Source: Tetradesmus obliquus
Taxonomy: Eukaryota > Chlorophyta > Chlorophyceae > Sphaeropleales > Scenedesmaceae
DNA: 64,000 nt
Direction of reading: 5' to 3'
Assembly (NCBI GenBank): GCA_030272155.1
Contig: CP126197.1
Coordinates: 3,588,001 to 3,652,000, forward strand
Made by a program: the position numbers and the translations under genes. The notes under the pieces were generated by a model. The model was not told the origin of the DNA, ran no database searches, and saw nothing but the letters and a program-made list of their open reading frames with translations. This document shows, one piece after another, positions 5,310 to 63,860 of the stretch. How positions within the stretch are numbered: the first letter of the stretch is position 1; each line of letters begins with the position of its first letter.

Positions 5310-8300
5310 ATGTCAGGCAGGGGTGGCGGCCGTGGCTGGTACTACAAGCAGAAGTATGGAGGCGGTGCTAGCCGCAACAGGCAGCAGCAGGAGCAGCAAG
5401 GTGAGCAGCAAGAGCCATGCTTTTCAGCAAGCAGGGGTACTGGGCGCATTCAATCTGTGTGCAAGCGCCAGGAGACCGCTATGGTGTGACTGTTCACAGT
5501 TGAAAATTTGTTCAAAGTAATAAGAGGTAACCTTTGCTGCCACTTCTGTGTTTCCTGCAACTGCTTATTCGACCGGCAGGAGGACAGTATGGCAACCAGG
5601 CAGATGAAGGGTACAGGGGCTACAGCGGCAACAGGCAACCAGAAGCAGCGCCAGCAGCAGGCTGGGATGGGGATGATGATGACGTCCCAAGCCAAGCAGG
5701 CTACCAGGTGAGATGCATTCACATGGCTGCTTGTGCTGAAGCAGCAGCAGCAGCAGCAGCAGCAGCCGAAACAGCAGGCGGATGCAATGTTACAGCTTGA
5801 CTACCACTGCACGCCAGCAGAAAATGAAGCACCACACACAGCGGCCAGCATAACCTCCAGCGTCCGTCAAACCTCACAATGCACAGGCGTTCATCCACCA
5901 AGGCCCGTTGCAACTTCACCCTGCAATTGCACCCCATGCCGGGCTTCGAAATGCATTGCTTTTCCTCCCGCATGCACACTGCAGGCTGGGTCTAGGCTGC
6001 TAGGTGATGCGCAGCAGCTGTTTGCAACCTTGAACCGCCTGGATGGCAAGGGCTACAAGGCCTACAGAGACATCCAGGGTGCCTGGCAGTTCAGCGGCTT
6101 TCAGCTGATCGTGGACCACTGCCAAGGGGACCCCTACGCAGCCCCCAGCAGGCTGCGAGTGCAGGTGTGCGATGAGGCCTTGCCTGGATATTCGTTTTAT
6201 AACAGTGTTACAATGATGTTGTGGCAGTGATGTGGGTGCAGTGCAGCCAACCAGCTAATGCGCAGGGAAGCATGTGTTCCTGCAGACTGCAGGTGGCTTG
6301 TTTAGCGCAGACTGTCTCATGTTGCTACCTGAGCTTGCTGTCACATCACGTGCTCTCTCTTACGACGCTGCAGATGCCAGCAACCGTCGCAGCACTGCCA
6401 CCTGAGCTGTGGAGCAGCAAGCTCCGCCGCATAGCGCTGGGTGACTGGCTGGCGCGCAAGCTCGCTGCAGAGGCAAACAGAGCCAGTGCAGCAGCAGCAG
6501 GGCAGGCGCAGGGATGGCATGGCGCAAAGGGCGGCGATGTGACAGTGGACCTGCCAGGTGCGGTAACCAAACACACGTTGCACGTACGTCTAGACGTCAG
6601 ACACGGCAGAGCGCCATTGTAGGCATGCTATGTATCTGTCATCTATACATTTTAGATTTATGCGTAAATGGTGACAGCCGTGACAGGATTTGAAAGCCAC
6701 CTTCTACACTCCATCAGCAGATCAGCAAAAGCACATCGTGCTGCAGCAAAGTTGCTGGGATGGCGTCTGTTATTATACACTACACAGCAACAAACTACTC
6801 GTCTGCCTGCACGGCCGGCTGTTACCTCATTCCAGTCACCCCTGCAATGGCTGATTTAAGGATTTGACTGGCAATGGCCACTCTGCCTCCTCTGTTTCTG
6901 TCCTTTTGCGCCAGGCCAGCATGTGGTGCAGCGCACCGCAGTGCTGGTGTCTGCTGCTGGTGATGTGGAGGCCCGCTTCACTGTGGGGCTGCCTGCGCCT
7001 GTTGCTCCCCCATGTTGCCTCTGTGCCAGGTCAGCACACCACCGTGCTGTTGTTGCCTGCTGTTTCAACACCAACGTGGCAGTGAATTTATTGGCAACCA
7101 TTGCCCTGCCTCCTCTGTTCTCACCCTCATTTCTCTCTGCGACAGGTCAGCACGTGTTGGAGCGCACTGCCGTGCTGGTGTCTACTGCTGGTGATGTGGA
7201 GGCGCGCTTCACTGTGGGGCTGCCTGCACAGGGCCGCAGCATCATGGGGCCCTGGGCCGGCCAGATATTGACACAGCACCTGGCCAGGTGCGGCGGCAGC
7301 TGCAATTTTATACAAGAGAAACCCTGGAGCTCGATAACAGCATATGCAGAGCAAGATCATATGCAGAGACTCAACCTGCTCTGTCAGTGGGTTGTCAGTG
7401 GGTGACGAGGCAGAATTAAGTGCAGATTGCAGCAACTGCCTGATGCATGTATTTCATCGTGGACCTTTGCATGCGCCAACGCAACCCCACTTGCGCTTTG
7501 TTATCCTTGTTATTCTAAACCCACAGGGCTGTGCAGGCCGCACTGATGTACCCTGCGCTGGACGGCGCCTCCATCTGGCGACACATCACCACCGTGGAGG
7601 ACACGGAGGTGCTGCGCGCCGCGCTGCCCGGTTTGGGCCTGGTGGGCTTTGTTGGCGACGGCGCCATCCTGCCGCGTAAGAGGTGCGATTCAACGTACCT
7701 CAAGTCAACTTTGACTGAGTCAGTCGACGCAACAGCAGCAGCATATGCATTGTCTTGGGCCTGGTGGGCTTCGTTGGCGATGGCACCATCCTGCCTCGCA
7801 AGAGGTGCGCGCTGAGCCGGGTTGCTCCGCACCCTCACTGGCAGTGGAGGGTCGCTGCAAGATGTTGCTCTGCACTCCTTTGCTGCTGCAGCCTTGATGC
7901 ATTGGGTGAATTCACTAGTGCTGCTGCTGCTGCTGCTGTTGCTGATTCTTGTATCTGCAGTGGCGCTAGCGACCTCCCCATGCCGCCTAGCGCCAGCCTG
8001 GTGCCATTTTCGTCCCCTGCCTCACTGGCAGTGGAGGTGGCGCTGCCCCACAGAGGGCGTGTGCGGGGCATGGGCATCAAGCAGGGCATCACACTTATTG
8101 CTGGTGGCGGCTTCCATGGCAAGAGCACGCTGCTGCAGGCGCTGGAAGCCGGAGTGTACAACAAGGTGGGATGGCGGCTATGTCACATGCTTAGACTGTG
8201 CTTAGACTGTGCGTCTGGCGCAGGGAGTGGGATGATTGCCGCCGCTTCAAGGCAAAGCTAGTGGGATTGACGGGTGGGTGCCTAGCAACACTGGCTCACC

Positions 8301-10958
8301 GCATGCTGGCCAGTGCAGCTGGCAGGTGCAGCGTGGCAGCCACAGGAGCCTGCAGTTGCTGCTCCCTTGCTTTGTGTCTCTGCTGCAGACACGCGGTTGC
8401 AGCAATGCATTAAATGCTGCCTGAGGCGTACAATCGCATGCTTTATCAGTCAACTGTGACGGCTGACACTGCAGGTGCCGGACGATGGCAGGGAGCTTGT
8501 AGTGATGCTGCCGGATGCTGTCAAAGTCTCAGCAGAAGATGGCAGGCGTGTGGAGGCTGTGGACATCAGCAATTTCATCAACAACCTGCCAGGGGGCAGC
8601 AGCACGGTCGCATTCCGCAGCGACGACGCCAGTGGCAGCACCTCGCAGGCGGCAAACATCCAGGTGGGAGTGGACAGCGGCTGCTGCTGCTGCTGCTGCC
8701 GCCAGAAGTACAGCATCGTACAATGTGTTGTTTGCTGCGCGCACATTGGCAGGTTCCAAGGCTGTGCTGTCGAAGCTTGCTGCTCTGCAAGGCGCAGAGT
8801 GTATGCGTTGTTGTTGTTCAATATGCGTTGTCACATGTTTGATGTGGAGCGCAGGAGGCGTAGGAGCTGGGTGCGTCCTTGCTGCTGATGGATGAGGACA
8901 CCTGCGCCACCACTTTACAAGGCTGTCAAACACTGTTACTTAACATTGTTATATGTTACTTGTGTCCTGCAGGAGGCGCTGGAGCTGGGGGCTTCCGTGC
9001 TGCTCATGGATGAGGACACCTGTGCCACCAACTTCATGATGCGTGATGCGCGCATGGCAGCGCTGGTGGCGCCAGCCAAGGAGCCCATCACGCCCTTCAG
9101 CAGCAGGATCGCGTGCGTGGCGGCGGCAGCAGCAGCATCAGAGCCTGAGCCTGAGTGCGGCAGCAGCTGCTTGCAGCTGCTCGCATGTGTGCCTTCTGCT
9201 TAGCAATACCATGACTGCGGCCGTTGTGAAGTGCATAGTTGTTGACAGCCTGATGCAAGTGCAGCTTTGCATTACGACATTATTGCTCAGTGCATTATGT
9301 GCTGAAAATCTGTTATGTAACACTGCTGGGAACGCTGAGTCAGTGGCACAGATGTGCTCAGTCAGCAGCCGCAGGACTCATGTTATCATAGAGCACTTAC
9401 TGGCTTGTGCTGAAGAGTGTTCTTCAATCGTACGTGCACTTGTCTATTGTCTGCAGGCTGCTGCGCGCTGCAGGCATCTCCACAGTGCTAGTCATGGGCG
9501 GCAGTGGTGACTACTTTGAGCATGCAGACACTGTCATCGTGATGGACAATTACCTCCCAAGCGATCAAACCCAGGCTGCACATGCGATAGCAGCACAGCA
9601 TGCAGCAACAATGGCAGCAGTAACAGAAGCAGCACCTGCAGCAGCAGCAGCAGTGGGGCAGCCAGTGCGGGGTGGGGTGAAAGTGACGCCGCGCGTGCCG
9701 CAGCGTGTGTATGCTGGAGGTCAGAATGATTACAGAGGAGTGAAGACACACGTCAGGGGGCTGCATCACATACAGGTGAGGGGCAGCTGGCACTTGTGAT
9801 TGGTTGAATTTGACCATGCATTGGTGAGTGCAGTCGCAAGGGCTGATGGCATTGCTGCCGTGGTGAAATGCTGATGACTGTGCAAGTGTGCTTTTCTGCT
9901 GCCTTGCCTGTCTGATCTGGTCCCTGCCTGGTTCCCCTCCTGCATGCACCTGGTCATGTTACTTTTCCATGTTTGCCGTGCTGATGTGCCTCGCCTGCAG
10001 TACGGCAACCAGGACATCCAGCTGTCTGCAGCAGAGCAGCTAGTAAACGAGTGTCCCCGCTGCCTGCTTGCCCGCCTGTCTGCATGCTTGGCTGCTTACT
10101 GTCAAACTTGCCTGCCTGCCTGCCTTGCCTGCAGTATGGAGATCAGGACATCCAGCTGTCAGCAGCAGAGCAACTAGTCGACAAGTCGCAGACAAGGGCT
10201 GTGGCAGACGCACTCAAGTGGCTGCAGGCGCAGCTGCAGCGCCAGCAGCAGCAGCAGCAGCAGCAGCAGGGTGGGAAGACGCTGCTGCAGTGGCTGGACG
10301 AGCTTGATGCGGCGATAGAGCAGCAGGTGGGTGTGGGCTTGCACGGCACTGCTGGCGCAGCAGCTGCAGCCGGTAGCAGGCTGTGTGCAGCAGAACTGCA
10401 GCGAAGCGTGCGATAGGCTGCATCACAGGTCCGGCCACCCGTATGAACACGCGCGTTGGCTCATTGAAACGGGGATACACCTAAGCTGGAGTTTACACCC
10501 AAGTATATAGACAGCTTCTCCAACAGCTGCCTCCAGTTTGCGATGAGCACGTGCATGCATGCATGCTTGAATGTGCATTGCGCTGAGCAGCTACATGCTG
10601 CAGCTGTGCAGCTCATCTTAACACTCAAATGCACGTGTGCTAAACAGTGGTGCACTGCCAAGGATGCGTCATTGGTATGCCTGCAGGGCCTGGATGTGCC
10701 TGCCTTCTACCTCAAATTTGCTGAACACGTGCGTGCATGCAATGCTTGAATGCACAGTGTCCTAAGCGGCTGCATGTTGCATTGGGCAGCTCATCTAGGT
10801 CTGACACGAAACTGCATGTGGTATACTGCGTGTCAATCTGCATTCAAATGCCTGCAGGGTCTGGATGTGCTTGCGCCGCAGCTGCTGGGCAACCTGGCTC
10901 GGCCACGACGTTTTGAGGTAGCAGCAGCCATCAACAGAATACGCACACTGCAGATGAC

Positions 10959-17246: not shown

Positions 17247-20200
17247 ATGTTCTCAGATTGGGGAGGTGGAGCTGCTGGTGCCGCCACCACCCTCCTCAGC
17301 TGCAGTGGTAGCTTTTGCCCTGAAGTTCTTGGCAGGCTACGGCAACACCCTGCTCAGCAGCAGCAACGACAACAGCAGCAGCAGCTACTCTGCCAGTGGT
17401 TTGCAGCAGTCGGATGCTGGCAGCAGCAGCAGCAGCAGGGTGGCGCCGGATGGCCAGCCCCTGGCTAGCTTTGGTGTGGATGCTGCCAGGGATGGAGGCC
17501 TGGGCATGCAGCGGCTGGTGAGTGCTGCATTTGCCGGTAAAAGGCGATTTCAAGCTTTTTTGGACATGTGCAATGCTGCAGCGCTATCATTTTGCCCTTG
17601 GCCATTGCACCTGAGTGCTGCAGCTCCTCACACATCAAGCCTTGTTTCACCTGGCTGCGGCACACCCTAATTGCACCCATATCACCTTCTGCGGCTGCTA
17701 CTGCACTGCAGGTTGCGGCGCTTAAGCACGGCTGTGCCATCCGCTTGGCTTCCTTAGTTGCATCTCATCTGCAGCCGCCTGCCCTTATTTGGCTGCAAAC
17801 TTGCATTTCAGGTTGAGGCAATGAAGCATGGCTTTGCCATCCGCACCGCACTGGGTGACCCAGGCACAGCGGAACGGCCCTTCCCACATGCAGATGCAAT
17901 CAACGCAGCAGTGAGGGACTTGCTGGATGATTCTTTTGTGGAAAAGCTGAGGGCAGCAACAAGGGATGATGGCGTGCTGCCGGATGATGAGTACGGCGGC
18001 AGGTGAGCAGCGGCAGCCCAATACGTTCATGTAACAGCTTGCGCAGCAGACTCGTAACATTTTCTGCAGAGGTTCTTGTTGTGTGGCTGGGTGATTCTCA
18101 ACTTGACAGCGCTGCAGCAGGGCAGGACTCTGTTGCACAATGGATTTTCCAAATAGATTTGGGCAGCCACACGGGATGATGGCGCGCTGCCAGATGATGA
18201 GTACGGCGGCAGGTCAGCTGCCTGAGCGCGTTACTTTCTGTACAGCTTTGTGAAGCACCTGTACACACCAAAGTTGTGCTGGGAAGCGCCTGCGCAGCAT
18301 CCTTGCAAAGGGTGACTGTTGAGCTGCTGTGCGAGCCTGATTCAGAATATCTGTAGCCAGGTGTGCCAGCTGGCACATGAGTGGTGCGTCCGGCTGCAGT
18401 CAACGCTGCTGCTGCTGCTGCTGCTGCTTCATCCTCAGGTGGAACCCCAGGGGTGTGCCGCCTGCCCCTGAGTCAGGCACCAGCCACTTCAGCATCGTGG
18501 ATGAGGAGCGCAACGCAGTCAGCGTCACTACTTCAGTGAGTCAGCGGGGCAGTGAGGCAGTGCAGCTTGGTAATGCAGCACGGAGGGAGGCAGCATGTGT
18601 ATTGATGCGGGCAAATGACACTGATACTTGCCAGCTGGCGGCTACAGTGCTTTGCACGCCAGATGGCATGTGCACGGGCGACCAAATCTGCGCTGGCCAG
18701 AATTTTGTGGCTGTTCAAGCTGCATGCTCTAAGCGTGGTGACTCTTGTTCCGCCTGCACTGAGCTGTGTTCGTGCTGCTGCTACTGCTGCTGTGGCTGCA
18801 GATCAACGCGCCCTTTGGCGCTGGCGTGGTGTCGCCGTCCACTGGCATCCTGTACGGCAACACCATGGACGACTTTGCACAGCCAAACAAGTACGCGAGC
18901 GCATGTGGGCGCTTTGGTATAATGTCGGATGCAGCTTTACTTGCCAGTATGTTGCGCTGCTCAGGTCTATGTTGCCACCACAGGTCCAGCTTGCAACAGC
19001 GCAGCCCTTAGATTTCACACCATGTGTATGTGTTTGTAGGGTCACCATCAGCACCTGTCCCTTTGCTGCAATGCATTGCCACACCCCACAGGTCCAGCTT
19101 CGTGACCCCGCATCCTTCAGAGGCCAACTTCATCGCCCCGGGCAAGCGCCCGCTATCGGCCATGTCACCCATCATCGCCAGCCACAGGCGCAGCGGGCGG
19201 CTGCTGGCGGTGGCAGGAGCCAGTGGAGGGCCGCTGATTGTCAGCGCCACACTGCAGACGCTTGCACGGTGAGTAATGGTACACCTGTGTGGGTCTTTGG
19301 CAGCCTGGTTATCCGCAGGACTTGCTGCAGTGTGAGCGCAAGGCCTTGGGCTTTTGTTAGACTGTTTATCAGGGATTGCTGGATGCCATGGCCCATCAGG
19401 ATGCGTGCTGCATCGTCTTTATCTGACACGGTAGTGAAAGCATGCTGCCGTACATTCGCACGCCCGCGGGGGGGCGTTGATTGTCAGCGCCACTCTACAG
19501 ACGCTGGCGCGGTGCGCCGCACAAGTCCCAGGGCTGTTTGTTGTACCACTCCTGTGCTGTGCTGTGCTCTGCTCTGCTGCTGCAGGTTGCTGCTGGAGGG
19601 TGCTGACGTGGCGCATGCTGTGTCAGCGCCACGCGTGCACGACCAGCTGCTGCCACAGAGCAACGCGTACTACGAGAACTACACATGTGAGTGTGGCTGC
19701 TGCTGCGGCTGCTGCTGCGGGTCCGCCTGCTGCCTTTCTATCCTTGACTCTGTTGGTGATGCATTCGGCGCCTGATTTTTAATGACCTGTGGGCTCATAC
19801 TCCGCATGCCAGCTGCAACCTACCTTTGCCAGTTGCAGGAATGCACAGTCAGCAGCACTCGCAGACTTGTAAGTCAAGAGTGTTGATGCAGCCTAACCAG
19901 AGGTGCTATGTCACCAGTTGCTCATGGTTGTTGGCTCAGGAACGCCAGAAGAGCTGCCACACGCCATCATTGAATTGCGGTTGCTTTTACCCGTGTGCTG
20001 CCTTCTGTGCTGCTGCTTTTACCTGTGATATGAACAAATGCTGCCGCAGGGGGCTTCACACAGCACCAGGTGCCGCAGCAGCTGGTGTCCTTCCTCAAGT
20101 CACATGGTCAGCAGCCAACAGCTGGCCCCTTCCCTATGGGCGTCTCGCAAGCAATCAGTGTCAGCTACAGCAGCAGCAGCTACAGCAGCAGCAGCAGCAG

Positions 20201-22620: not shown

Positions 22621-22640
22621 ACTCACTCACTCACTCACTC
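22621..22640. repeat. (ACTC)5 microsatellite
   Basis: Five perfect tetranucleotide units in the convergent intergenic region. Confidence 0.9.
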
Positions 22641-28022: not shown

Positions 28023-28057
<35 letters not shown>

Positions 28058-28740: not shown

Positions 28741-29533
28741 AATGAGTTTGTTATAATTTAGTTTGCTTTGAATCTTGTGCCGTGGCGGAACCTCAAGAAC
28801 TTTCACTGAAGTTCCTGAGCATGGCAGTGGTATGCCGCAGGACGCCCTTGATTTCGCTATCAAATGGGTTGGTTTAGCGTTCTCGACGGCTCCAATATGG
28901 TTGCTCTCTGAGGCGATCGATACTCACGTCGTCACCGCGGGCGTAACGGGAGGTGCTTGCTTCTTGAGTTGTGTTGTCGTGTATAGACAAAGCAGCGTTG
29001 CACAGGTGCAAGATTTTACGTCGACGATCGGGGGTTGCTCAAGCACGTTGCCCTGCCAACTTGTCAAGACTCTGACGTCAGTGTCATCTGACAGTGCAAT
29101 CAGCCGTGGGTGGCGTCAAAGCTCCATGCTTACGACATGCTCAGGGCATTTGGCTGAGCACTTTTGTACGGTGGAAGGCTATGCATAAGATCTTCACTAC
29201 TGGGCATGCTGTAGCATGTTACAATGTCCATTCTTCTTGCTACCACTCTGCTGCGATGATGCTGAAAGCTTGAGCCTGGCAAGCTTTTCCAGTGCACAAG
29301 ATACAGCCGCAAAGTAACTCAAGCGTGCAATGCTGCAGGCACCGTACAAGCCCCCTTTCGGCAGCGTATGCATATGCATGCTCCTGCCCCACGCCTGTCC
29401 ACTGCGCACTGCTGCAACCCCATGCAGCCACGTGCAGTGCACCCCTGGGGAGTTGCCCTTGCCGGACACTAGCCGCTATGCATGAAGCACTTCACTCCTG
29501 CAGCGCTGCCGCTACATGCACCTGGGCACATCA
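28741..29533. other. Intergenic: upstream of secreted-protein gene
   Basis: This stretch holds the promoter of the minus-strand secreted-protein gene. It differs in texture from neighbouring gene bodies (few CTG/CAG runs up to about 29200). A 137-codon plus-strand frame starting with ATG at 28775 contains a hydrophobic segment, but I see no family and no splice partners; it may be chance or a small gene. Confidence 0.35.
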
Positions 29534-29850
29534 GCTCCTGTTGCTCTCCCGCAGCGCCTGCCTGCCAGCCTGCCCACCCGCTGCTCCGCAATGCCGGCGC
29601 CACCGTGCATGCACATGTTACATACAGCACCTTAACGCTGCCTCTGCAGGCATCTGTTCGATTTCGATCAGATCCTGTTGCTCTCCCGCAGCGCCTGCCT
29701 GCCTGCAGCCCACCAGCTGCCCCGCAATGCCGGCGCCACCGTGCATGCACATGTTACATACAGCACCTGTATGCTGCCTCTGCAGGCATCTGCTCGAGTT
29801 CGATCAGCTCCTGTTGCTCTCCCGCAGCGCCTGCCTGCCAGCCTGCCCCC
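29534..29850. repeat. 137-bp tandem repeat spanning the SMC2 3' end
   Basis: Three copies of a roughly 137-bp unit start at 29534, 29671 and 29807 (the third partial). Each has the block CCTGTTGCTCTCCCGCAGCG, which in the third copy encodes the C-terminal residues of SMC2 in reverse orientation; the second and third copies run across the stop codon and the 3' untranslated region. Copies differ by scattered substitutions. Confidence 0.8.
29754..29758 (-). terminator. Candidate TGTAA poly(A) signal, SMC2
   Basis: TGTAA on the minus strand, 46 nt past the SMC2 stop. It lies inside the 137-bp repeat, so a second copy is present near 29617. Confidence 0.35.
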
Positions 29851-32416
29851 TCTGGCTCGCCTTGCCGCCTCCTGCATACGCATTCTCGCGCGCGCCGCGC
29901 GCTGCACCGCCGCCGCCGCCGTGCGCCGCCGTGCTGCTGCTGTCGTTCACGGTGCGCGTGACGGTTGACACGCCGTCCACAAACTTGGTGCGGAAGATGA
30001 CATTGGCGTTGTTGAACATGCCCTCCTTGAGCGACACCACGATGAACTGGCTCTGTGGTTGTAAGGCAAGTCGTGGGAAGCATGACTCAGTACGCAGAAG
30101 AGTATGCGGACTAGGGGGAAGAAGAAAGGATGATGAAACAACACAGGCTAGCATCAAAGCACAGCAGCTATTGGAGGCCAACAGATCAAGACGCAACCCC
30201 TTAAGTCAACTCCCACAGTGGAATAGTTTCTTCCCCACGCAACCACGTAGCTAAGCGCACCTGCGGGAAGTGCTGCTTGACCATGGCGCCGATGTTCTGC
30301 GTGTGGTTCAGGTCCAGCGCCGCATCCACCTCGTCCAGGATGTAGATGGGCGCGGGCTTGAACCTGCAAAATAAAGTGCAGACAGCACAGCGGCGTAATC
30401 AGCACAGCAACTGTCAGGCTTGCTGCATCCTCGTCCAGGATGTAGATGGGTGCGGGTTTGAACCTGCAGGAGATGATACTGCGGACAGCACAGAAACAAT
30501 CATCTAACAAGTAAGGTGTGCTGCTGCAGCAGCAGCATGCAGGATGATACCGCAGACGTGCGGCCACAGCGAGGTGACCAGAGTGATGTGCACAGCCCTT
30601 CCTCTCATCTGCTTTCTCATCTTCCCCTCATCATACACGGCTGACAATACACCAAACATGTATCAGTGTACGCGTCCATGACGCCTCACCTGCACAGCGC
30701 CAGCACCAGGCTGAGTGCCAGCGCCAGCACCAGGCTGAGTGCCAGCGCCAGCACCAGGCTGAGTGCCAGCGCCAGCACCAGGCTGAGTGCCAGCGCCAGC
30801 ACCAGGCTGAGTGCCAGCGCCAGCACCAGGCTGAGTGCCAGCAGGCTGCGCTGGCCGCCGCTCAGCTCCGTCAAGCTCTCCTTCCAGGTGCCGCCAAAGG
30901 CCACGCGCACCTTGGAAACGCTGCCGGTCAAGTCAAATGCACAACAGCACTACCCCGTTGCCCCTGACACATCATCTCCTTATCCTCTGTTTCACTTGAC
31001 ACCGTGTATCTGCTGCATTCACCCAACCTCACCTGCACAGCGCCAGCACCAGGCTGAGTGCCAGCAGGCTGCGCTGGCCGCCGCTCAGCTCCGTCAAGCT
31101 CTCCTTCCAGGTGCCGCCAAAGGCCACGCGCACCTTGGAAACGCTGCCGGTCAAGTCAAATGCACAACAGCACTACCCCGTTGCCCCTGACACATCATCT
31201 CCTTATCCTCTGTTTCACTTGACACCGTGTATCTGCTGCATTCACCCAACCTCACCTGCACAGCGCCAGCACCAGGCTGAGTGCCAGCAGGCTGCGCTGG
31301 CCGCCAGACAGCTCTGTCAAGCTCTCCTTCCAGGTGCCGCCAAAGGCCACGCGCACTTCGAGGCCGTCCAGGAAGGTGCCGCCCTCGGGGGGCGTCAGGC
31401 GCGCGGCCGTGCCGGGCAGCAGCGTGGAGAAGATGGCATTGAAGTCGCCGTCAACCTGCGGGGGAAAATGCAAAAGGAGTGATGTGGTAGTATGTGGGTT
31501 GAAGAGTACATCGAGATTGAGGGAGTGTGCTGAGCAGCAGCGTGGAGAAGATGGCGTTGAAGTCGCTGTCAACCTGCAGAAAAGATATACATAGGGGTGT
31601 GAGGTTGAGTGCGAGAGAGTGTGAAAGAGAGTGAATGGGTGCCGACAGCAGCGTAAAGAAGATGGCACTGAAGTTGCCATCCACGTGTGGGAGCAGCCAG
31701 GTCAGAAAATAGCGAGAGAAGTGAAACTGGCGACGTCTGAAAAGGATTCTTCCTGGCAGCAGCATGGAGAAGATGGCGTTGAAGTCCCCGTGCAACCTGC
31801 AAAGCAGGTGGAGAGATACTTTGAAAAAGACCGGAGAGAGGGATCTAAACGAGAGAGAGCGCGCTTGGCAGCAGCATGGAGAAGATGGCGCTCCTATGTA
31901 GTGACAGCAGCCGCACCTGCTTCCAGGTGAGCTTGAGCGCCACACAGACTCACACACAGCATAACAACAACTAACTATAGCAGCATCCGCATTCAGCACA
32001 CCGCACCTGCTTCCAGGTCTCCTTGAGCGCCTCTCGCTTCTTCTCATCCAGCTGCTGGATGACAGCCGTGATCTGGCCACGGTCGTCCTCCACCTGGGTG
32101 TTGCACAGAATTGATACGTTAGACCGTTATGGCGACCCAGCAAGCAGCAGCAACAGCAGCATACAGGGTCAGCGATTGATCTGAGCCGCAGCAACACCAG
32201 CGCCATCAGCTGCCACGTGGTCTCTTCGTGCGATTGAACAAACAGTTTTGTGCTGCAGCACGCCTGCACAAGCAAGCCTTTGATTGAACATGAGCCGGCC
32301 GCTGCAGGATTAACAGATCAGTAGCGATGCTGATGCTGCTGCTGCTGCCGTCACCTGCTTGCGCTTGGCCTGCAGCCCCTCCACCTCGTCCTTGTTGCGC
32401 CTGTACATCAGCTCAG

Positions 32417-35400: not shown

Positions 35401-37356
35401 TGATGCATGTTCTTATGTTCTGCAACACCTGCACCCTGTCGCAGCGCATGCACGGAGTTCACACTGCAGAAGGACGACAAAGCAGTGCAGTACTGCGCAT
35501 CCTGCGCAAGCGAGTCCTCATCTTTTAGTTGATGCCGCTGCAAGCTGATTGCCTCTAACTGATCGACTGCAGGGCCACCGGTCAACGTCACCGCATTGCT
35601 GCTGTCCAAAATGTGTCCTTGAAGTGATGTGCTGCTCACCTTTGCCAGCGCCACCATCTCCTTTTTCTTCTCTGCTGCCGCGCCCGCCTCCTGCTGCGCT
35701 GCGGCCAGCTGCTCCTCTGTTGCTGCCAGCGCTGCAGCCAGCTGGTGGCCCTCGCTGCCTTCCAGGCGGCCCTGCAGCAGCTGCAGGCTGTGCTGCTGCA
35801 GCTCAAGCTCCTGCTGCAGCCTGCAGTCCAACGGGTTTTGCAACAGCAGTCCACAACAGAATGCTCACTCACATGCAGGGGGCCAGGTCGCAAGACGGGC
35901 AGGTTGCAAGGTGGGTGTGCTCCAATCCCCTAGATGCAGGGCTAGGGGCGCTGTCTGCAGGAGGGGTGTCTCTTTCACACGTAGCTGATGCATTTCTGTC
36001 GCCAGACTACTGCCCTTGTGTGCTTCACAGAGGATTAGCTGCAGTGTATCACACGGCTCTTGGGAAATTACGTGCACCACACGACACAACTGCGTAACAA
36101 CAGCACACTCCAGTGCAGCATGTTCATCTTGAACCATCGCAACAAGAACACCGTCATGCTCAATCTAATACTGCACACGCCAACTCACTTCCTGTGCTGC
36201 CTCCCCAGCGGCTCCAGCTGCCGCAGCTGCTGCTCAATCTGCTGAAGCTGTGCGGTGTGTGCAGCCAGTTTGTCTTCTGCCTCCAGCAGCTCGTGCAGCC
36301 TGAGCAGCAGGCTGCCGCCAGCGCCGCGGCTGCCACCTGCATAAATTCAATGAACAGGTTGTGAATGGTTAGATGACATGGGAAGCGCTCATCATGCTTA
36401 CTAGTACACCAGAAGCTGCCACCTGCCATGTATGATGATGCAGCGTTGATGCTCACAGCAGCCAGCCACAGCGCCGCATCACCTATGCTCGTGCAGAGTC
36501 AAAGTACGGTCCATGGTGTGGCAGCGCCCGCACCTGTGAGCAGGCCTGAGGGGTTGAAGTCGTCGCCCTCCAGTGTGATGCAGCGGCTGTTGACCTCGCG
36601 CGAAAATGCGAGCTTCTTGGCGGTGCCGGTGTCCTGCACAGGCGCAGACGTCAGCAGGTCAGAAGATGGACAGCAACCCCACATCAGGCCCCCGCGTACC
36701 ATTGTCATATCAGTATATCTCAGCCTGCTGTTGCACTGCTTGCTTATGCACCCGATGCAACAATCGGTGCAAGTGACAAGCAAATAACGCCAGTCGAAGA
36801 CCGCAAAAGCCTCTTAGGCAAGCAAAAACTCAGGAGACAACCGCAGCGCGCACCTGGCACACGAAGGTGGTGCCGAAGGCGTACTTGACTGCTGCTTCCA
36901 CCTCGGGCGCGTAGCCCACCAGCTGCAGCGCCGGCTGCGCCTTGCCGCCGCCCATCTGCGCTGCCGCAGACAGCACGGAGGGGTGCGTGTCCTGGTAGCG
37001 CACCTGCAGCACACAGCACCCAGGCAGCGTAGACACAGAATCAGGCACAGATCAGAGACATCGGATGAATCACGCGGCACGGAGGGGTGCGCCTCCTGGC
37101 AGCGCCCCTGCGGTCAGACCAGGCAGCACGGGCAGCTGAGGGTAGGCAGGTGAGGCACATGCCAGGCAGCACAGCCAGCACGGAAGGGTGCGCCTCTTGG
37201 TAATTATGGAAGTTCCCCAGACTCACACTTGTAGCTACCCCTTTCATCTGCAATGCTGCCGCACCTGGTTGAGCGGGATGATGGTGACGCGCTTGGTGAG
37301 CTGGCCGCGGTCCAGCAGCGCCTTGGCGCTCTCATGGGTGTCAACCACCACCTGGC

Positions 37357-37388: not shown

Positions 37389-40300
37389 GGCACACGGCAG
37401 TCACAATGGCTGTTGATAACAACATAGACAGCGCCAAGCAGCTCTGCACAGTACATGCATAGCAATCAAACGTCACCGACAGCACCTGCATCTTATGAGA
37501 GCAGTGCAACAAGGAACACTGAGCAAGCGCTGGCAGTCCACAGGTTTGCTGTGCAACATTTTCAACTGAATGCGTGCATGACGAGCACGTGATGTGCGCC
37601 TGCTGTCCCACCTGGTACAGGCGGCCTCCTGCAGCCACCTCCAGTGCAGTGGCTGCTGCGGGGTCCTTCACACGCACCAGCTTGGCAACAACCTGCAGCA
37701 GCACCAATGGGACAATCACAGTGTTGGCTCATGCATAGTGTTGACCAGCACAGGTGCATAGCAGTTGCATCGGTAGCGCAACCCCCTGCACACCTCACCC
37801 TGCTGCTGACGGCACTGCAAGTCTTTGCACCATACTCGATAAACTAGTACAGCTATTAAATAACTGTACCTACTGCTGAATAACTTACTTGCAACAGCGG
37901 TGATCCACCACATGTCAAATCTAATTGAACTCACCCCCTTGACCTTGCTGCGGTCCCAGCCACGCTCGGGGTCCCTGTAGGTGAAGTCCAGGCCATGCAT
38001 CTGCGCCCCCAGCGCCTCTACTGCCTCCTTGGCACTGCGCAGCGCTGCCAGCTCAGCGCGGCGAGCTTCTTCCAGCTGCTCTGCTGCTGCAGCATCATAG
38101 CCCAGCTCCTGTACGCAGCAACCAGAAGATGAGAAGATAGAAGTATGATGACATGTTGCAGGATAGGCTTTGACTTGTTGGGCACAGCTGTGATTGAGGG
38201 CACAGTGTGCATGGCTAGCTGTGTGTGCCGCTGAACAGGGGCTGCTTGGGGCATATGTGTGCCCGAAGGAGGGGGGGGGGGGGGGGGGGAGATGGGGAGA
38301 AGTGCTGCGCCCTCGCATTCTATGCAGCCTTGCGGCATGTGCATAGCAGCTGCCAGCTTGCTGGACACGCCACCTTGGCTACATACCAAGACATACTCCT
38401 CCCACATCAACAGGCTGCTTTCAAGAAGAAAGCAAGAAGAAAGCAATATCGATATAGATCAAGAAGAAAGCAATACGATAAAAACCTCTGCACGTGTGAC
38501 CTAAAAACCGCCACATCGCGTGAGAATTTCCACCTGCAGCGCCTGCGTGCAGCGCGCCACCTGCTGCTGCGCCTTGTCCAGCTGCTGCCGCATCGCGCTG
38601 CCCTCCTTGTCCTTGCTTGCCAGCGCCTTGCGCTGCTCTGCTGCTTGCTTGCCCAGGTGCTTCTGCTTGATGTCTGCTGCCTTGGCCCCCGCGTCTGCAG
38701 CCGTCTGCGCGTTCTGCGCATCTGCCAGCCGCTCCTGCAGGCTCTTGTTAGACTCGTCACGGCCATCGCCAGTCTCAGCACCTGTTTTGGTTTGTACGTG
38801 GCACAAATGCACAGCCGCAGTAGTAACAGCAGTATGTGTGTTGGTCGTCAGTTTGCGTGGTTCATGTCAGGGAGCACTTATCAATGCTTGCAGGAGGCTT
38901 GCACCCTGCCACACAGCAACGCAGCAGACCACTTCAAGAATGCAGCAGGTTCAACCTGCACTGCACAACTGCGCCACACACACCTGCCAGCTCGCGTGTG
39001 GCAGCTTCCACAGCATGCTCAGCAGCCTGCAGGCCAGCAGCCGCCTCATCACGTGCCGCTGTGGCTGCTGCCACGCGTGCATTAAGCTCCTCTTGGTTGA
39101 GCTCTGCCAGCTGGCCCTGCAGGCTCGCCAGTGCTGCCTGCTCGCTGTCCAGCATGTCTTGCTTGTTCTTCCAGTTGGCGGTGTCCTTGGTGAGCCTGGT
39201 TTTGTGACAGCAACAGCAGCAGCAAATGGTGTGACAACTGTCCTGGTTGTGGGACAGCAACAGCAGCAGCAACGGCCGCGGCAGCAGATGGTGTTGAGGC
39301 AGTCCACCTACAAACTTTCCTGAAGCTACTCGGCACACATGTCCCCTGCCGCTAGCGATCAGCAGTGCTGATGCATGCCAGCCATGCATTCGCAGGCTTG
39401 CGGTAGTACAGTGGCTGGCCAAAGCTCCGGCACATCACACGATTAACGAACCACACTCACTTCATAGCCAGCTGGTCCGCCCCCTGCTGCAGCTCCTTGA
39501 CCTCGCCGCCAGTCTGCAGCTCCTTCTCTGTCTGCAAGCCCTGGATGTCGCTGGCCTTGTCAGACGCCTCGCCCTCCAGCTCAGCAGCCTGCTGCTGCAG
39601 CTGCGCCACGTCAGCAGCCATGGCCGCCAGCTCAGCCTCGCCAGACTCAATGACCCTGCATTGCAACAATAGTCATAACATGTTCTAAACTCGTTCCTCA
39701 GCAGCAGAGCATGAGGCCGCCAGCTCAGCCTCGCAAGATTCAGTGACCTTGCAAAGCAACAAACATGTTGTATTTGTTCCCGAGCAGCTGCGCCACGTCA
39801 GCAGCCATGGCCGCCAGCTCAGCCTCGCCAGACTCAATGACCCTGCGAAGCAACGAAAAAGCAAAAGGTTCGTTTTGAACCCTCCCCAAGCAGCTGCGCC
39901 ACGTCAGCAGCCATGGCCGCCAGCTCAGCCTCGCAAGACTCGATGACCCTGCAAGCAAGGATAGTCATAACATGTTCTAGAATTGTTCCCCAGCAGCAGA
40001 GCATGAGGCCACCAGCTCAGCCTCGCAAATGGAAAACAGGTTGGCCAGGCAGCAGCACATGAGACGGAGGGTCCAGGGCAGCAGAGCATGCGCCTTGGCT
40101 GCCTCTGCTGGAAGACAGCCCTCTGCAGGATGCTTGTTTGCAGGCAGCAGATGAGCGCACGCATGCTGGTCCTCGTGACAGAATCACGCACTTGTCAGAC
40201 TTTGGTGGAATCAACACGCACTGTCAGCGCCGATGATGAGTGAGTGACCTTGCCCAACACAGCAAGCTGCCCTGCACGCCACTCACTTCTGCGTCTGCAT

Positions 40301-49400: not shown

Positions 49401-50608
49401 CAGGCAGCTGGCGGTCGAGCTGGACAGGGCAGGCAGGCTCACCGCTTGGCGGCTCGCACATGCGGCCGCCGAAGCACCGCACGAGCGGCAGCGGCAGCGC
49501 GAGTCAGTCCGGCGGCAAGCAGCGGCGGCGCTCGTGGCACACACATGACGATGAAGTGGAAGCAGCGGCTCCGCGCGGCAGCAGCAGCGGGGCGGCAGTT
49601 GAGGGCAACAACAGTGACGGCGGCGCGGTCAAGGGTCCCGGTGGCAGCAGCAGCAGCAGCAGCAGCGGGCGCCGCAGCAGGCTAGCGCAGCAGCAGGGTG
49701 GTGACGCTCATCACAAATCCAACATTTGTGCCATTAGGGAGGCTAGTGGTGAGCTGGAGGCGCTGGTTGCTGCTGCTGCTGCAGAGGCTGGCAGCAGCAG
49801 CACACAGCAGCGGCGCCGCAGCAGCCACACTGGGCATGATGCTGGCAGCAGCAGCAGGGATGCAGGGGAGGAGCAGGATGATGAGCATGAGGATGGGGAG
49901 CATGATCATGACAGCGAGCATGGCAAGCGGCGGCGGCGCCGGCACAGGGGCAGCGGCAGCAGGCGCGCTAGCTTGGATGAGTCGCACCCGGGTGGCAGCA
50001 GGCGGCAGAGCTTGGACGAGGGCAGCAGGGGCGGCAGCAGGCGGCAGAGCCTTGATGAGTCTGGCGGCAGGTATGGTGGCAGCAGCAGCAGCAGGCCTGG
50101 CAGCAGGGCTGGCGCGCCGTCTCCGCTGGAGGATGCTGCTGCTGCTGGGCAGCATGCGCATGGGCAGCACAGCAGGCCGCATTCTTCGTGCAGCGCTGGG
50201 GGTGGCAAGCCACACAGTCACCATGGCAGCCCGAGTCCTGCAAGCCACATGCCTGGGGAGCGCCGCGGCAGCCACGACGGCTCAGCTGCTGCTGCGAAGG
50301 AAGCTGGCAGCAAGAAGAAGGAGAAGAAGGATTATGCCAGCTGGGCAGCAGCTACGCCTGAGTTCCGTGCGGCGGCTGCAGCAGTGAAGCACAGCGGCGG
50401 CGGCAACGGCAACAGCAGCAGCAGTAGTGCGGCGCTGGGCAGCAGTCCTGCGAGGGCGGGGCTGAGCCCGATGCGGGCGAGTGGGGGTGGTGGAAGTGTG
50501 GCCAGCGGGCATGATGGCGACAGCCATGTGCGCATTGCGCGCATGCCAGACGGCTCGCGTGGATTCGGCATGGGACGTGGCAGGGCGCTGACGCCTCCCC
50601 CGCAGTGA
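46495..50608 (+). CDS. LARP6: La-related protein 6 (LARP6) with long disordered tail
   Basis: Five exons with matching phases: 46495-46686, 46926-47007, 47289-47501, 47710-47920, 48094-50608; 1070 aa from the first in-frame ATG. The La motif (VEFYFSDANLPTDKHLLKQI then GYVPLRMIANFKRVKALT) is split over exons 2-3, followed by an RRM (RRTVVVEHLPDKPTI, SVTQLLAQYGRVVMVRI, GEFALVEFGSEEDCVA) and an RVRHLLTNFKPS linker. The large last exon is an 838-codon low-complexity region rich in Ser, Ala, Gly, His and Arg, with repeats of the type SRRxSLDEG. It ends in MPDGSRGFGMGRGR, the SUZ-C/LSA-like box typical of LARP6. The protein is expected to bind RNA stem-loops or poly(U) and control translation. An exon starting at 46465 (after ACTGCAG) is an alternative N-terminus. 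Plant and animal LARP6 proteins are much shorter, so the tail is unusual. Confidence 0.92.
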
Positions 50609-52896: not shown

Positions 52897-54414
52897 ATGG
52901 CGGGCCAGGAAACAGCAGCTAGAGCAGCACAGGAGACTGACTGGCATGAAGAGGTGGAGAGATGCAGCAAGATGTACAGTATAGACCAGTGGATGCAGCC
53001 TAGGAGGTGGGTGGGAGGCAGAGTTTCGAGGATGCTAGCTGTATGCATCACACAACAATGCTTCAACTGCTGACGGCGGCGGCCGCGGCTGCCTTGGTAC
53101 CTGCAGCATGGTGCAAGTGCAGCTGGCAAAACTCAAAGAAGAGACTCGTTGCCCCATGTGCTTTGGTGAGTGTGTGCTTCTGTGCTAAGAGGAGCACTTA
53201 TGCCTGACTCGTCTGTGGGGCACCACTGGCGGTAATCAGTACCATACCTGCTGTGTGTGCTGCACCTTGCACTTGGCAGCAAGCATTGCTGCTGTGCATG
53301 GTCACGGTGCTGTACAACAGCAGCTATCCATTCAATCCTTCTTGCTGCTGTATGTGCAGTGCCCACTTCATTCATCAGTTCCCTTGTTCCATATGCACCT
53401 GCTGTTCTGCATCCTGCAGGCAAGATCCGCAGCGCCAGGATCTCAATGGTCTGCCTGCACCGCTACTGCGCCAAGTGCATAGAGCAGTACCTGCGCGCCA
53501 AGGTGCCAGGCAGGTGTGTGTTCACAACAGCAGTACACAGCTGTACGTAGCAGTGCAACTGGCTAAACTGATGAACATGTGTAGTACTGCGCCAAGTGCA
53601 TAGAGCAGTACCTGCGCGCCAAGGTGCCAGGCAGGTGTGTGCTCACACCGCAGTACTACTGCTGTGAGCAGTACAACTGACTGAACATGTGGCCGGCAAA
53701 ACGCAGCAGCACTTTGGCACATGGCCTTGCAGGAGAGACAGGGGTAGCTGACAACACTGAATCCCTCAGCAAGTATGGTGCAGTTGGAATGGGCTCAGAC
53801 GGGAAGCATAGCACTTGTGCTGTTGCTGTAGTCGGCCCAAGGTGCGCATCAGCTTGACACAGAGCATCCTGTCAGGTACCGCCCGCCTGATCTGTGATGT
53901 GTTGTCCCTGCTGCCCTTGTTTACTGCTGCAGGCATGGTGATGACAAGGAGTGCCCCGTGTGCAGGGCGCACCTTCACAGCCGCAGAGCAACCAAGCCGG
54001 TGAGAAGTCTGCATCACAGCCGTGTAGCTGTTCACAAGGCATTGCATACACATTGCTGCTGTGGTGGTGCTGCACGAGCAGCATGCATCTGCTTGCTCTG
54101 CCGTACCAGCACCTGCCAGCAAACATGGTCATGACTGCGTGTGCTGCACTTGCTGCAGCACCAGCTGCTGCTGCCCAGCTTGCAATGTAATGCATGCTGC
54201 CTTGCAGCATGTACATGCGCCTGTGCTGCCAGTCGATAGTGTGCTGTGCTTGAGGGTGTGTGTTGGTTTTCTGTTTGACCGGTGTTTGACCAATGTTTGA
54301 CCTGCTGCTTGCAGGACCCCATGTTTGACAAGATCATCAAGGCGCTGTACGGGGATGTTGACCAGTACGATGCAGAGGTGAGAGCAAGCACCGAACTGCC
54401 TGCTGCATGACAAT

Positions 54415-60664: not shown

Positions 60665-61813
60665 CAGGAGATGCTGGTCAGGGTCAGCAGCAGAGCATTG
60701 AGTCTCCTGGCAAGGAAGGGGTTCAGACAGTTGTTGAGAGCGAGCTGAGGACGCCCACACAGTGACATATAATTACATTAAAGGTAACAAACAAATAACA
60801 ATATAACAACGCACCAAAAGAAGTCCTGGCCGTCTGTTACCTCCTTGCCAGTGACGGCCAGGAAGGTGGCGGCAAAGCCCTTCGGGAACCACTGCTCCAC
60901 ACAATAACATGTCACTTTTTAAATGTTCAAATGTAACAAAATAACAATATAATACCCACCAGAAGAAGTCCTGGCCGTCGGTCATCTCCTTGCCGGTGAC
61001 GGCCAGCCAGGTGGCAGCAAAGTCCTCCGGGAACCACTGCTCCACCTCACCGATGGTGAAGTAGTTCACAGGGAAATCCGCAGTGCCCAGCATGCCGTCC
61101 CTGCAAAGCAACAGATAGTGTGATAATGTACATTGACTCGTAAACATGACACGTCACTGCTCCACCTCACTAATGGTAAAGTAGTTCACGGGGAAGTCCG
61201 CAGTGCCCAGCATGCCGTCCCTGCAGGTGACATTTGCACTCATGTTAGTGACAGAGTAAAGTAACATGTTGTTCCACCTCGCTGATGGTGAAGTAGTTCA
61301 CGGGAAAGTCCGCGGTGCCCAGCATGCCGTCCCTGCAGGTGACATTTATACTCATGTTAGTGACAGAGTAAAGTAACATGTGTTTTCCACCTCGCTGATG
61401 GTGAAGTAGTTCACGGGGAAGTCGGCAGTGCCCAGCACGCCGTCCCTGCAGGTGACACATCGTATGTTTGTTATCAATCCAAAGCATGACAAAAAGTATA
61501 ATGCATAGTGAAACACTTTGACATCTCGCTGATGGTGATGTAGTTCGCAAGAAGTCCCTGATATATATACGCAAACCCAGTCGCACCTGTGGTGCGGCAT
61601 CTTGAGGAGCAGCAGGAGCGGGCCCCTGCCCACAAACGCCATTCCTCAAATGCCCGCAGCCAATGGATTGATAAAACGTATTTTACACAAACCCGCCGCG
61701 CACCTGTGTCGCGGCATCTTGAGGTGCAGCAGCAGTGCCAGCGCCGCCTCCACCGCCTGCTCCGGCAGCAGCCCGTACGGCTCGTAGTAGGCCTTGCCGA
61801 TGATGATCCTGAC

Positions 61814-61861: not shown

Positions 61862-63583
61862 CCAGCAGCGGCGGCAGCAGCAGACATGTCAGAGTTTGAA
61901 GGAGGTGTTACAAAACATGTCTGCTAGCTGCCGATGTGCCTGCCTGCTTGCCCTGCCTGTGTGGCTGCTTGCCTGGCCTGCCTGCTACAGGACTATTGGC
62001 AGGCGATAGCTGATCAGCCATGGCAGACAAAGCAATCCTGCCCACCTGTGCTTGGGGTCAATGTGGTCGTAGCTCATAGGTAAACAGCACAGACAACCAG
62101 CAAACAAGTCATTCAAGCAGTAGCTCATCAGGCAGTAAAGACAGAACCAGTTCAAACAATGTGGCCTGCATACCTGTGCTTGGTGTCCATGTGGTCAAAG
62201 CTGAGCTTCACATCCATGAAGCAGCCGCCCTTGGTGGGGTACCTGCAGCAGCAGCAGCAGCAGCAGCACGTCAGGGTGCTATTATGTCTTGTCCGAACTA
62301 TTGCAGGTCGCTGCCCCACCAGTCACCTGCTAGTGCGGACTGGCCTCGTCTGCTGCACTCAACACCTGCATGCGCCTGGCTTGACCATGCTTTTTCCCTT
62401 TTCATGCGCGTCCCCAAACAAGCCCACCATGATAAACAGCAGGCAAGCCACACACCACACTCCACACACCACACACCACAAGCACCTGCCTTGCTCCCCA
62501 CATTTCTGTCTGCCCCACCACAGTCTCCAAATTCCAAATTAATTTCAAATTTATTCCAAACGAATTGAGTGTTGCTCACTTGGCTTTGTACTCGACCACA
62601 AACTGCTTGGCCTGGCCGTCCACCACGGCAGTCGCGGTGCGCACGGGGCGCCCGCTGCTTGCCGCTGCACTGGCCGCCTCACTGGCTGCTGCTGCTGCCT
62701 GCTGTGCGCCTGCGTCACCCTGCTGCAGGAAGTCCACCTGGCAGCAGCAGCAGCAGACAAATTTTCATGATGCTGACAAAATTGCGCAGCTTCACACCTC
62801 ACACAAGACATTTAAGCAGTTGCTGAGCAGTGAACAGCCAATCAGTTGATGGAAAAACAGCCGCCACTGCGACGCACTTGGCCCTCCGCCATGCGCTCAC
62901 CACAACACGGACCAAGTCATTCATTACAACACCACATTATAACATTGTTTGTGGCAAAGTAACGCACCTGGCCATCAGCCATGAGCTCCGGGTCAGGCAC
63001 AAACTCCTCCTTGCAGCCACGCGCCTTCAGCGCCGCCTGCAGCGCAGCAGCCTTTTCTGCGGCAGCAGCAGGCTTGGCACGAGCACTGATTGCGCCCGCA
63101 TCCACAGCAGACTGCGGGCAAAAACAAACAAACAGCAAGCAGCCCACACAGTAGCGTCAGCAGCAGCAGCAGCAGCAAAGGATGTATGTGCAGGCGTGAT
63201 GCTGTGGCAGGATGTGCACGTGCTGCACAATCTTAAACGGCTGTAGCTGGTGGCCAAAGCCCAGCCCCCCGACACTTAGCAGGTGCATTGTGTATGCATC
63301 GGCAAGCAAACAGAACCGTTGATAGCAATATCTGCACCTGCCAGGCCTTGCGCTCCAGGGCCAGCATGTTTCTGAGGCATGCAGGCACTAATGTGCACGG
63401 CTGCTAGTGCTGCACAACCCTACAAACGCCAAACTTGATGACACCTGAACCTGGCCCCGCACCTGCCATGCCTTGCGCTCCAGGGCCAATTTGTTGCCTG
63501 GGGGTGGCGCGCCGCACTCGTCAAACCACGCCTGGCGCAGCGCCAACATGTGCTCCTGGTCCAGCACAGGCAGCTGCACAGCC
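60529..63583 (-). CDS. Unrecognised protein, 5' end beyond the window
   Basis: Seven exons with matching phases: 63583-63463, 63111-62968, 62737-62580, 62242-62174, 61808-61704, 61100-60960, 60628-60529 (stop); 278 codons and more upstream, since the first exon starts in phase 2. Sequence features in order: LPVLDQEHMLALRQAWFDEC, an Ala-rich helical linker, GCKEEFVPDPELMADGQ, a Val-rich strand (TATAVVDGQAKQFVVEYKAK), YPTKGGCFMDVKLSFDHMDT, GKAYYEPYGLLPEQAVEAAL, TADFPVNYFTIGEVEQWFPE, WLAVTGKEMTDGQDFFW and a Gly-rich tail (GAMTGAGLGGYGG). Composition is that of a soluble globular protein with conserved-looking Trp, Tyr and Gly; no membrane helix. I do not recognise the family. Four of the seven exons have clear partial copies in the flanking introns and a fifth has a weak one. 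Confidence 0.7.
60815..60905 (-). repeat. Decoy copy of right-edge gene exon 6 end
   Basis: The 3' part of the exon (VEQWFPE to DGQDFFW) is copied 145 bp further on, with TTTTG|GTGCG as donor. The copy has a frame-altering change in the FPEDF region (FPKGF), but the end, including the donor phase, is intact, so it is a possible alternative exon end. Confidence 0.8.
61155..61445 (-). repeat. Three decoy copies of right-edge gene exon 6 start
   Basis: The exon start (DGMLGTADFPVNYFTI) with acceptor occurs at the real junction 61100 and again at 61220, 61332 and 61445 (spacing 120, 112, 113 bp). Each copy is over 90 percent identical across about 65 nt by eye and reads ISEVE instead of IGEVE before diverging. 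Confidence 0.85.
61510..61640 (-). repeat. Decoy copy of right-edge gene exon 5 end and a fragment of exon 6
   Basis: LLLLKMPHHR with AG|GTGCG at about 61586-61620 mirrors the real exon 5 end (LLLHLKMPRHR at 61704), offset about 118 bp. A short TISEM fragment at about 61525-61545 resembles exon 6. Confidence 0.65.
63325..63365 (-). repeat. Decoy copy of right-edge gene exon 1 end
   Basis: LALERKAWQ with its GTGCAG donor recurs about 125 bp after the real exon end at 63463. Confidence 0.75.
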
Positions 63584-63659
63584 CTGCGGCACAGGGTGGA
63601 TTTGGAACAGAAATAGGTGTTGGGATAAGGCAATCTCAGTGAAGATAGACAGAGGGTTA

Positions 63660-63860
63660 CAGGGCGCAGCGCCAGCATGTGCTCCTGGTCCAGCACAGGC
63701 AGCTGCACAGTCCTGCAGCGCCATAGGGTGGTTTTGGAACAGAAACAGGTGTTGGGATAAGGCAATCTCAGTGAAGATAGTTGGGCGGAGGGTTGCAGAG
63801 CGCAGCGCCAGAATGTGCTTGTGCTCCTGGTCTGGCACCGGCAGCTACACGGCCCTGCGG
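63660..63860 (-). repeat. Two decoy copies of right-edge gene exon 1 start
   Basis: VQLPVLDQEHMLALR with a TGCAG or CGCAG acceptor is repeated with junctions at 63712 and 63854 (real junction 63583; spacing 129 and 142 bp). The outer copy is degenerate and contains an in-frame stop. Confidence 0.8.

Follow-up and report, generated by a model that had tools for sequence, protein, structure and literature searches.

Gene conversion and concerted evolution leave a sharply bounded block of similar sequence next to flanks that have diverged. A local duplication that takes in splice sites is described as a route of intron gain for ATP2A1 and for potato RdRp, and in the latter case an existing intron-exon structure was duplicated (PMC4974935, in part). 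Staggered breaks, processed by Pol alpha-primase/CST fill-in and end joining, are reported to give direct duplications without prior repeats, in tests with overhangs of about 43-50 bp (PMC8355091, in part). Introners have been found chiefly in lineages that evolve fast, green algae among them (PMC9860276, in part). For Tetradesmus obliquus, a mean intron length of 462 bp was given (PMC5966456, in part), and intron retention, a pattern different from the present one, was reported for a Scenedesmus gene (PMC12899622, in part). Here, we describe copies of exon edges within the adjoining introns of T. obliquus, starting from a window of 64 kb (C7:3588001-3652000, the whole stretch analysed; positions without a contig name are counted within it) of a 104.66 Mb, 17-contig assembly. 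The window includes SMC2, an ABC ATPase gene, the genes named GGT and RING1, and a gene at its right edge. The copies are real, common in the genome, and placed where splicing hides them. Among the titles and abstract openings listed in searches of open-licence papers, up to 20 per search, none described this copy pattern or a conversion linking an exon's edge to copies in its intron.

The main sample covers 264 kb, consisting of the window and five 40 kb blocks from five contigs, while the replicate takes 10 kb from each of five further contigs (50 kb in all) and is small, with pieces that cut through genes. Short-period repeats were masked before self-comparison, and pairs at most 1 kb apart with at least 40 bits were kept. 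The SMC2 exons, read by hand from the minus strand and joined, gave 19 exons and 888 residues, which P0002 (T. obliquus OEZ86_007870) contains as one unbroken, identical stretch. A gene finder was trained on hand-built models, SMC2 among them; with an exon-length prior it recovers 18 of the 19 hand-made SMC2 exons, and an earlier version, which split genes into tiny exons, was dropped. For the junction scan, the first or last 30 exon bases were compared with the exon's own intron and at least 21/30 matches counted as a copy. It covered 200 of the 373 predicted introns of the main sample (223 with exon scores of at least 5, then filtered for length and complexity); in the replicate, 37 of 77 were scanned.

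Nearby pairs of at least 40 bits are almost exclusively in direct orientation, with 196 direct vs 1 inverted in the main sample, 69 vs 0 in the replicate, and 52 vs 1 in the self-comparison of the window alone. A copy of the intron's own exon edge is present in 43/200 introns of the main sample and in 9/37 of the replicate. In the former, copies were found for 25/200 donor and 23/200 acceptor edges, compared with 2/200 and 0/200 for the reverse complement and 2/189 and 1/180 for the intron on the wrong side of the exon (Fisher p ~3e-6 for each vs own intron); random introns gave 0/200 for donors at 22/30 matches. The replicate gave 4/37 donors and 7/37 acceptors, with 1 and 0 for the reverse complement and 0/34 and 1/33 for the wrong side. 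Thus, donor copies lie downstream of the exon and acceptor copies upstream of it. The observation made in a preliminary description of the window is confirmed, and the junction-anchored controls are near zero. The smallest offset of a junction cluster is 89-168 bp in 61 of 77 cases and 179-302 bp in the other 16 (offset filter 80-310 bp, with one of 78 clusters outside), so the offsets, many of which the preliminary description put near 120 bp or its double, do not strictly follow 120 or 240 bp. Of all bases predicted as intronic in the main sample, 17.3% fall within local repeat clusters, whether or not these are at junctions. The density of junction clusters varies among the six blocks of the main sample (20/94, 14/62, 0/47, 5/53, 14/54, and 25/63 clusters per predicted introns; p 9e-6); the block without any, for 47 predicted introns, is contig C2, 1200001-1240000, and the one with 25 for 63 is on C5. 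The possibility that the repeats are an assembly artefact has to be mentioned, as repeats are typical sites of assembler error. It is hardly credible, given that the majority of copies diverge from the exon at a few to about 30% of positions and that 10 of the 11 sampled contigs carry pairs at predicted junctions, the C2 block being the exception.

The clusters are also concentrated at junctions. In the masked main sample, 78/92 clusters have a predicted junction inside the copy, while random placement gives 41.1 (standard deviation 4.1, maximum 52 in 300); the remainder are 5 intron-only (null 17.2), 3 intergenic (15.4), 1 exon-only (5.5), and 5 mixed (12.7). Without hard masking and at offsets of 60-170 bp, 74 clusters comprise 61 junction, 6 intron-only, 3 intergenic, and 4 mixed, so that the junction share without the mixed class is 61/70, or 64/74 with a looser filter (4 of 78 omitted). 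It could be assumed that plain tandem duplication occurs everywhere, purifying selection removing exon-only duplications and neutral decay erasing intron-only ones faster. This explanation, which we consider improbable, accounts for the direct orientation, for full-unit arrays such as the one at 30843-31356 (98.6% identical), and for spacer homology in 25/55 units (p<=0.01), and geometry alone would place about 40% of detected repeats on one junction. In a simulation of uniform duplication and neutral decay (1600 duplications at each of two indel rates, uniform placement, harmful sites redrawn, uniform ages, same aligner), the junction share was 0.39 or 0.40; since simulated classes are by true placement with a unit of about 115 bp, their comparison with observed classes is approximate. 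The block shape is harder to reconcile with it. Simulated junction pairs have a median match/offset ratio of 1.00 or 0.99, and at an identity of at least 88% the ratio is below 0.65 in only 3/117 or 7/92. In the unmasked main sample, junction clusters at offsets of 80-170 bp (n=53) have a median of 0.65, and among the 25 with at least 88% identity, 16 are below 0.65 and 4 at 0.9 or above (p 1e-8 vs 7/92), the count below 0.65 depending on masking (21/23 masked, 16/25 unmasked, with the simulation unmasked). The whole-unit match expected of plain tandem duplication is thus absent from most high-identity clusters. The block shape disfavours the neutral duplication model, and the junction share disfavours it in the main sample only. 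The same count bears on the comparison with staggered-break duplications, for which the cited part of the source states no tie to exon edges (PMC8355091): fill-in of such breaks is a plausible source of the duplications here, but 16/25 high-identity pairs match over less than 65% of the unit.

What remains alike is mainly the exon part, a point absent from the preliminary description and not readily explained by simple duplication. In 44 two-copy clusters, the similar block has a median of 41 exonic and 9 intronic bp (masked sequence), and the mean match is 0.81 for the exon part, 0.63 for the spacer, and 0.49 for unrelated spacers. In the same two-copy pairs, the spacer matches the intron-side flank at p<=0.05 in 15/44 (~2 expected), which, together with the 25/55 units with similar spacers, indicates duplication behind many copies. 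A looser spacer alignment was dropped because wrong-offset controls scored about equally. Matches between different spacers were 8-13 bases long among 15 viewed of 1585, a comparison without a null that bears only weakly on a shared element family or on insertion with a long target duplication. Across 45 exon/copy pairs with 1923 codon sites, there are 92 synonymous and 84 other differences, and the difference by codon position is 0.066, 0.062, and 0.147, which indicates that the copies are nearly unconstrained at the protein level. The synonymous share is 52%, above the 42% predicted for a neutral copy and a silently changing exon (p 0.004). Judged by the codon-position differences, the exon parts appear to share a younger ancestor than the spacers.

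The best reading, to which we give slightly less than even weight, is a duplication across the exon edge followed by re-copying of short tracts from the exon. It is proposed that a small local duplication, with a unit mostly of 90-170 bp, would span the exon edge and the adjoining intron. It would be tolerated because splicing uses the outermost edge, which is still attached to the complete exon, and removes the extra copy with the intron; use of the outermost edge accounts for donor copies lying downstream, acceptor copies upstream, and the copy of a coding-sequence end in the 3' flank. Subsequently, the exon part, and not the spacer, would be re-copied from the constrained exon onto the intronic copies in tracts of about 30-60 bp of exon and a few bases over the splice site, a homogenisation resembling gene conversion, with the exon as its anchor. 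Duplications lacking such an anchor would diverge and become undetectable. Duplication across the exon edge is likely the starting event, one that we infer where the spacers of a pair no longer match, and exon-anchored re-copying, deduced from the contrast between exon parts and spacers, likely explains why the exon part stays recognisable.

The serious alternative, and the main rival, is direct copying of the edge alone. It assumes that introns break, usually at a distance of 50-90 bp from the junction, that repair inserts a copied tract of about 55 bp of exon edge without duplicating the spacer, and that arrays arise later through unit duplication between the direct repeats. The exon parts, mainly 30-60 bp, are consistent with this, as is the array at 23815-24101 of the C4 block, where, by eye, the spacer recurs between copies and the sequence past the last copy is unlike it. 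However, the spacer does match the intron-side flank in the fraction of two-copy pairs given above, and direct copying offers no reason why the sources should be exon edges (only 6 intron-only and 3 intergenic clusters of 74 in the main sample). We regard it as rather unlikely. Another view is that exon-edge copying is not ordinary duplication at all and has a process of its own, short-tract, edge-anchored, and genome-wide, that refreshes copies and feeds alternative exons; the process could be templated repair, or conversion tied to transcription or splicing. This view is doubtful.

Several observations weigh against duplication followed by re-copying. The spacer match is non-significant in 29/44 two-copy pairs, which is also what direct copying predicts. 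Exon parts longer than 65 bp are scarce (2/34, with a uniform expectation of 0.44), although this test compares still-matching sequence with original units and decay adds to the scarcity. In 19 arrays, the copy nearest to the exon is better than the next in 11, worse in 7, and equal in 1, so that the order expected of plain duplication is kept in 11/19; a farther copy leads by at least 2 in 6 of them. The replicate is less clear than the main sample. In its masked sequence, 19/27 clusters are at junctions (null 13.4, standard deviation 2.4, maximum 21), with 4 intron-only, 1 intergenic, and 3 mixed, and unmasked at 60-170 bp the junction class is 9/16 (null 7.5), with 5 intron-only and 2 mixed, near chance, as plain duplication would have it. 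Without the mixed class, the share is 9/14 vs 0.40 expected (p 0.06). Intron-only clusters in the replicate reach 94-96% identity, and pairs touching a junction number 142/187 in the main sample but 31/60 in the replicate. The main sample therefore has a strong junction excess; that of the replicate is weak and, taken alone, not clear. Moreover, most gene models come from our own finder, and counts resting on it carry error. Compared with P0241, an ABC protein from another T. obliquus assembly, it misplaced some ABC exon ends and called the intronic copy 7742-7804 an exon; the ABC junctions adopted here differ from the P0241 tblastn edges by no more than a few bases. It also fused two copies into a helicase model on C1, for which a protein search gave no T. 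obliquus protein among the best 120 of 954 matches.

It might also be considered that selection retains the copies, as alternative or decoy splice sites or as a splicing buffer, while spacers decay. The GT is kept in 20/23 donor copies and the AG in 20/21 acceptor copies, one copy is annotated within an SMC2 isoform, and the synonymous share exceeds the neutral expectation. Nevertheless, 92 vs 84 differences in 45 pairs are still near neutral, offsets show no in-frame bias (20/77 divisible by three), exon third positions also look recent, and by our own estimate the GT/AG retention is about that of neutral decay at roughly 90% identity. Retention near neutral and the lack of in-frame bias make most copies look like passengers, and selection as the general cause is quite improbable. 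For the earlier proposal that the copies form a stock of alternative or decoy sites, the isoform is one annotated case.

The preliminary description also compared the copies with intron gain by tandem duplication of AGGT-bearing segments, and took them for a wider junction-duplication process. That the introns arose by duplication of such exon segments, or by introner-like insertion with a long target-site duplication, could be suggested by the direct repeats with AG|GT and by the richness of these genes in introns; we regard it as very improbable. Among 223 introns, the 50-bp flanks of donor and acceptor match at a mean of 17.65 vs a null of 17.53, with one intron at 26/50 or more (null 0.95) and none at 28 or more (null 0.3). 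The flanks of the same intron are thus no more alike than chance, and a link with intron gain finds no support. Introner target duplications are, in turn, 3-9 bp (PMC9860276, in part). Intron gain by duplication in ATP2A1 and potato RdRp likewise rests on local duplication involving splice sites (PMC4974935, in part); unlike there, existing introns here gain extra exon edges, and no duplicate-ended introns were found among the 223 tested. Introners are likewise a recurrent intron-shaping process, but here the copies derive from the adjoining exon. The pattern resembles gene conversion in its sharply bounded similar blocks and, in one SMC2 array, in a farthest copy that is the most exon-like; here, conversion would act over about 100 bp, between the edge of an exon and the copies in the adjoining intron. 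If the proposed mechanism is correct, introns record repeated local copying of exon edges, which may partly explain the long introns of T. obliquus. It would also offer a natural system for short-tract homogenisation between coding and non-coding DNA, in which duplicated splice sites could be observed becoming alternative exons.

The features of the window are collected in Table 1. Each of the 14 repeat clusters in the list for SMC2 and the ABC gene overlaps an exon edge; for one cluster, this is the 3' coding-sequence end. The offsets of the preliminary description were recovered by self-comparison, which gave 90, 93, 100, 104, 223, 242, and 257 bp in SMC2, with array steps of 114-124 and about 112-118; 122, 118, and 134 in the ABC ATPase gene, to which 223 and 179 were added; 100, 210, and 243 in GGT; 121 in RING1; and 116-145 in the right-edge gene, with array steps of 112-120. 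Its claims of exon-junction copies in adjacent introns, and of a recurrent local process that often includes exon edges and leaves copies from near-perfect to decayed, are accordingly upheld. The names GGT and RING1 are an earlier reader's labels, as are those of the genes described as repeat-free (MOB1, LARP6, and a secreted protein), and indeed none of the clusters (at 40 bits and offsets of at most 600 bp) starts in 19515-29529 or 40029-53463, where these are placed.

Table 1. Exon-edge copies and related local repeats in the 64 kb window (offsets in bp).
Feature	Coordinates	Strand	Offset, identity, or remark
ABC ATPase exon near 7145; copy ~223 bp upstream	6883..7227	+	
ABC ATPase exon end and donor 7633-7687; intronic copy 7755-7809	7633..7809	+	offset 122, 91% identical
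ABC ATPase acceptor and exon start 8946-9030; upstream intronic copy 8828-8912	8828..9030	+	offset 118
ABC ATPase acceptor and exon start 10133-10186; upstream copy 9999-10052	9999..10186	+	offset 134
ABC ATPase acceptor near 10858; decayed copy 179 bp upstream	10567..10874	+	68% identity
GGT region, two local duplications	17702..18248	+	offsets 100, 210; counted intron-only
GGT predicted exon end and copy	19219..19514	+	offset 243
SMC2 coding-sequence end (29803-29848) copied into 3' flank	29530..29848	-	~2.3 units of 136 bp
SMC2 true acceptor and exon start 30329-30390; upstream copy 30429-30493	30329..30493	-	offset 100
SMC2 donor-side array	30843..31356	-	2.4 units of 223 bp, 98.6% identical
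SMC2 true acceptor 31455, upstream copies	31409..31890	-	offsets 118, 229, 340; fragment at 452
SMC2 exon end 32001-32031; copy 31911-31941	31911..32031	-	offset 90
SMC2 exon part and donor 33130-33233; copy 32873-32976	32873..33233	-	offset 257, 98% identical
SMC2 acceptor array: true exon (33281 downward) and four upstream copies	33221..33780	-	
SMC2 exon end 34188-34290; copy 33946-34048	33946..34290	-	offset 242
SMC2 acceptor and exon start 36973-37007; copy 37077-37111	36973..37111	-	offset 104
SMC2 true acceptor 39655, three upstream copies	39597..40028	-	offsets 93, 187, 293
RING1-like exon end and 13 bp of intron 53464-53526; copy 53585-53647	53464..53647	+	offset 121
Right-edge gene, predicted exon end and donor 60957-61045; copy 60812-60900	60812..61045	-	offset 145
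Right-edge gene, acceptor array, predicted acceptor 61100	61035..61457	-	copies at 120, 232, 345
Right-edge gene, predicted donor 61704 and copy	61568..61735	-	offset 116
Right-edge gene, predicted donor 62174 and copy	62037..62202	-	offset 128
Right-edge gene, predicted donor 63463 and copy	63334..63488	-	offset 125, 97% over 30 bp
Right-edge gene, array of ~132 bp, 2.2 units, at window edge	63534..63860	-	class 'mixed'

The acceptor array at 33221-33780, which is outside the 19 arrays compared above, illustrates the separation of exon part and spacer. Its farthest copy (33699-33764, about 477 bp off) has an exon part identical to the exon at 55/58 positions, while the three middle copies match at 41-44 of 52-58 and two of them are without nine exon bases. 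The spacer of the farthest copy matches the other four at 35-38 of 53-56, whereas those four match each other at 43-57 of 54-65. For this single array, transfer confined to the exon part would most simply account for the data. The copy at 33946-34048 has GAA (Glu) where its own exon has GAT (Asp), and Glu is present in the T. obliquus proteins P0003 and P0004, so this copy seems to retain an exon state known from proteins of other strains. Isoform P0001 equals P0002 with 62 additional residues, which come from the copy 32873-32976 and sequence upstream of it; the insertion is an in-frame alternative exon at about 32878-33063, annotated at the same locus as P0002, and is known from annotation only. 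Since both our finder and this public SMC2 isoform include copies as exons, the copies are a warning for gene annotators. In P0005, the SMC2 of Scenedesmus sp. NREL 46B-D3, 20 extra residues are annotated at the junction that matches the acceptor-copy site 30329-30493, possibly a misannotation from a similar copy. A perfect 24 bp minisatellite of 6.2 copies lies at 30695-30842 and adjoins the array on the donor side of the exon with the SMC2 signature motif.

In the ABC ATPase gene, P0241 contains the first copy only and omits the donor copy 7755-7809. The RING1-like pair shows both layers, as its 63 bp block is 98.4% identical and the spacer match is yet 0.71. The GGT model is incomplete, and two of the three GGT pairs were consequently counted as intron-only. 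At least two coding-sequence ends are copied into the 3' flank, one in the window (29530-29848) and one in a predicted gene of the C4 block (16328-16484, near 1216400), which suggests that the exon edge, rather than the splice site itself, may matter. Among intron-only clusters in the main sample, the longest is an array with a unit of about 182 bp inside a predicted intron of the C5 block (31968-33786, near 732000-733800 of the contig). A big diverged array on contig C10 (1680-3078 of piece L030) has copies without a predicted junction and is either intron-only or contains exons missed by the finder. Numerous CAG/CTG runs occur throughout the window, both within exons and 5' of acceptors.

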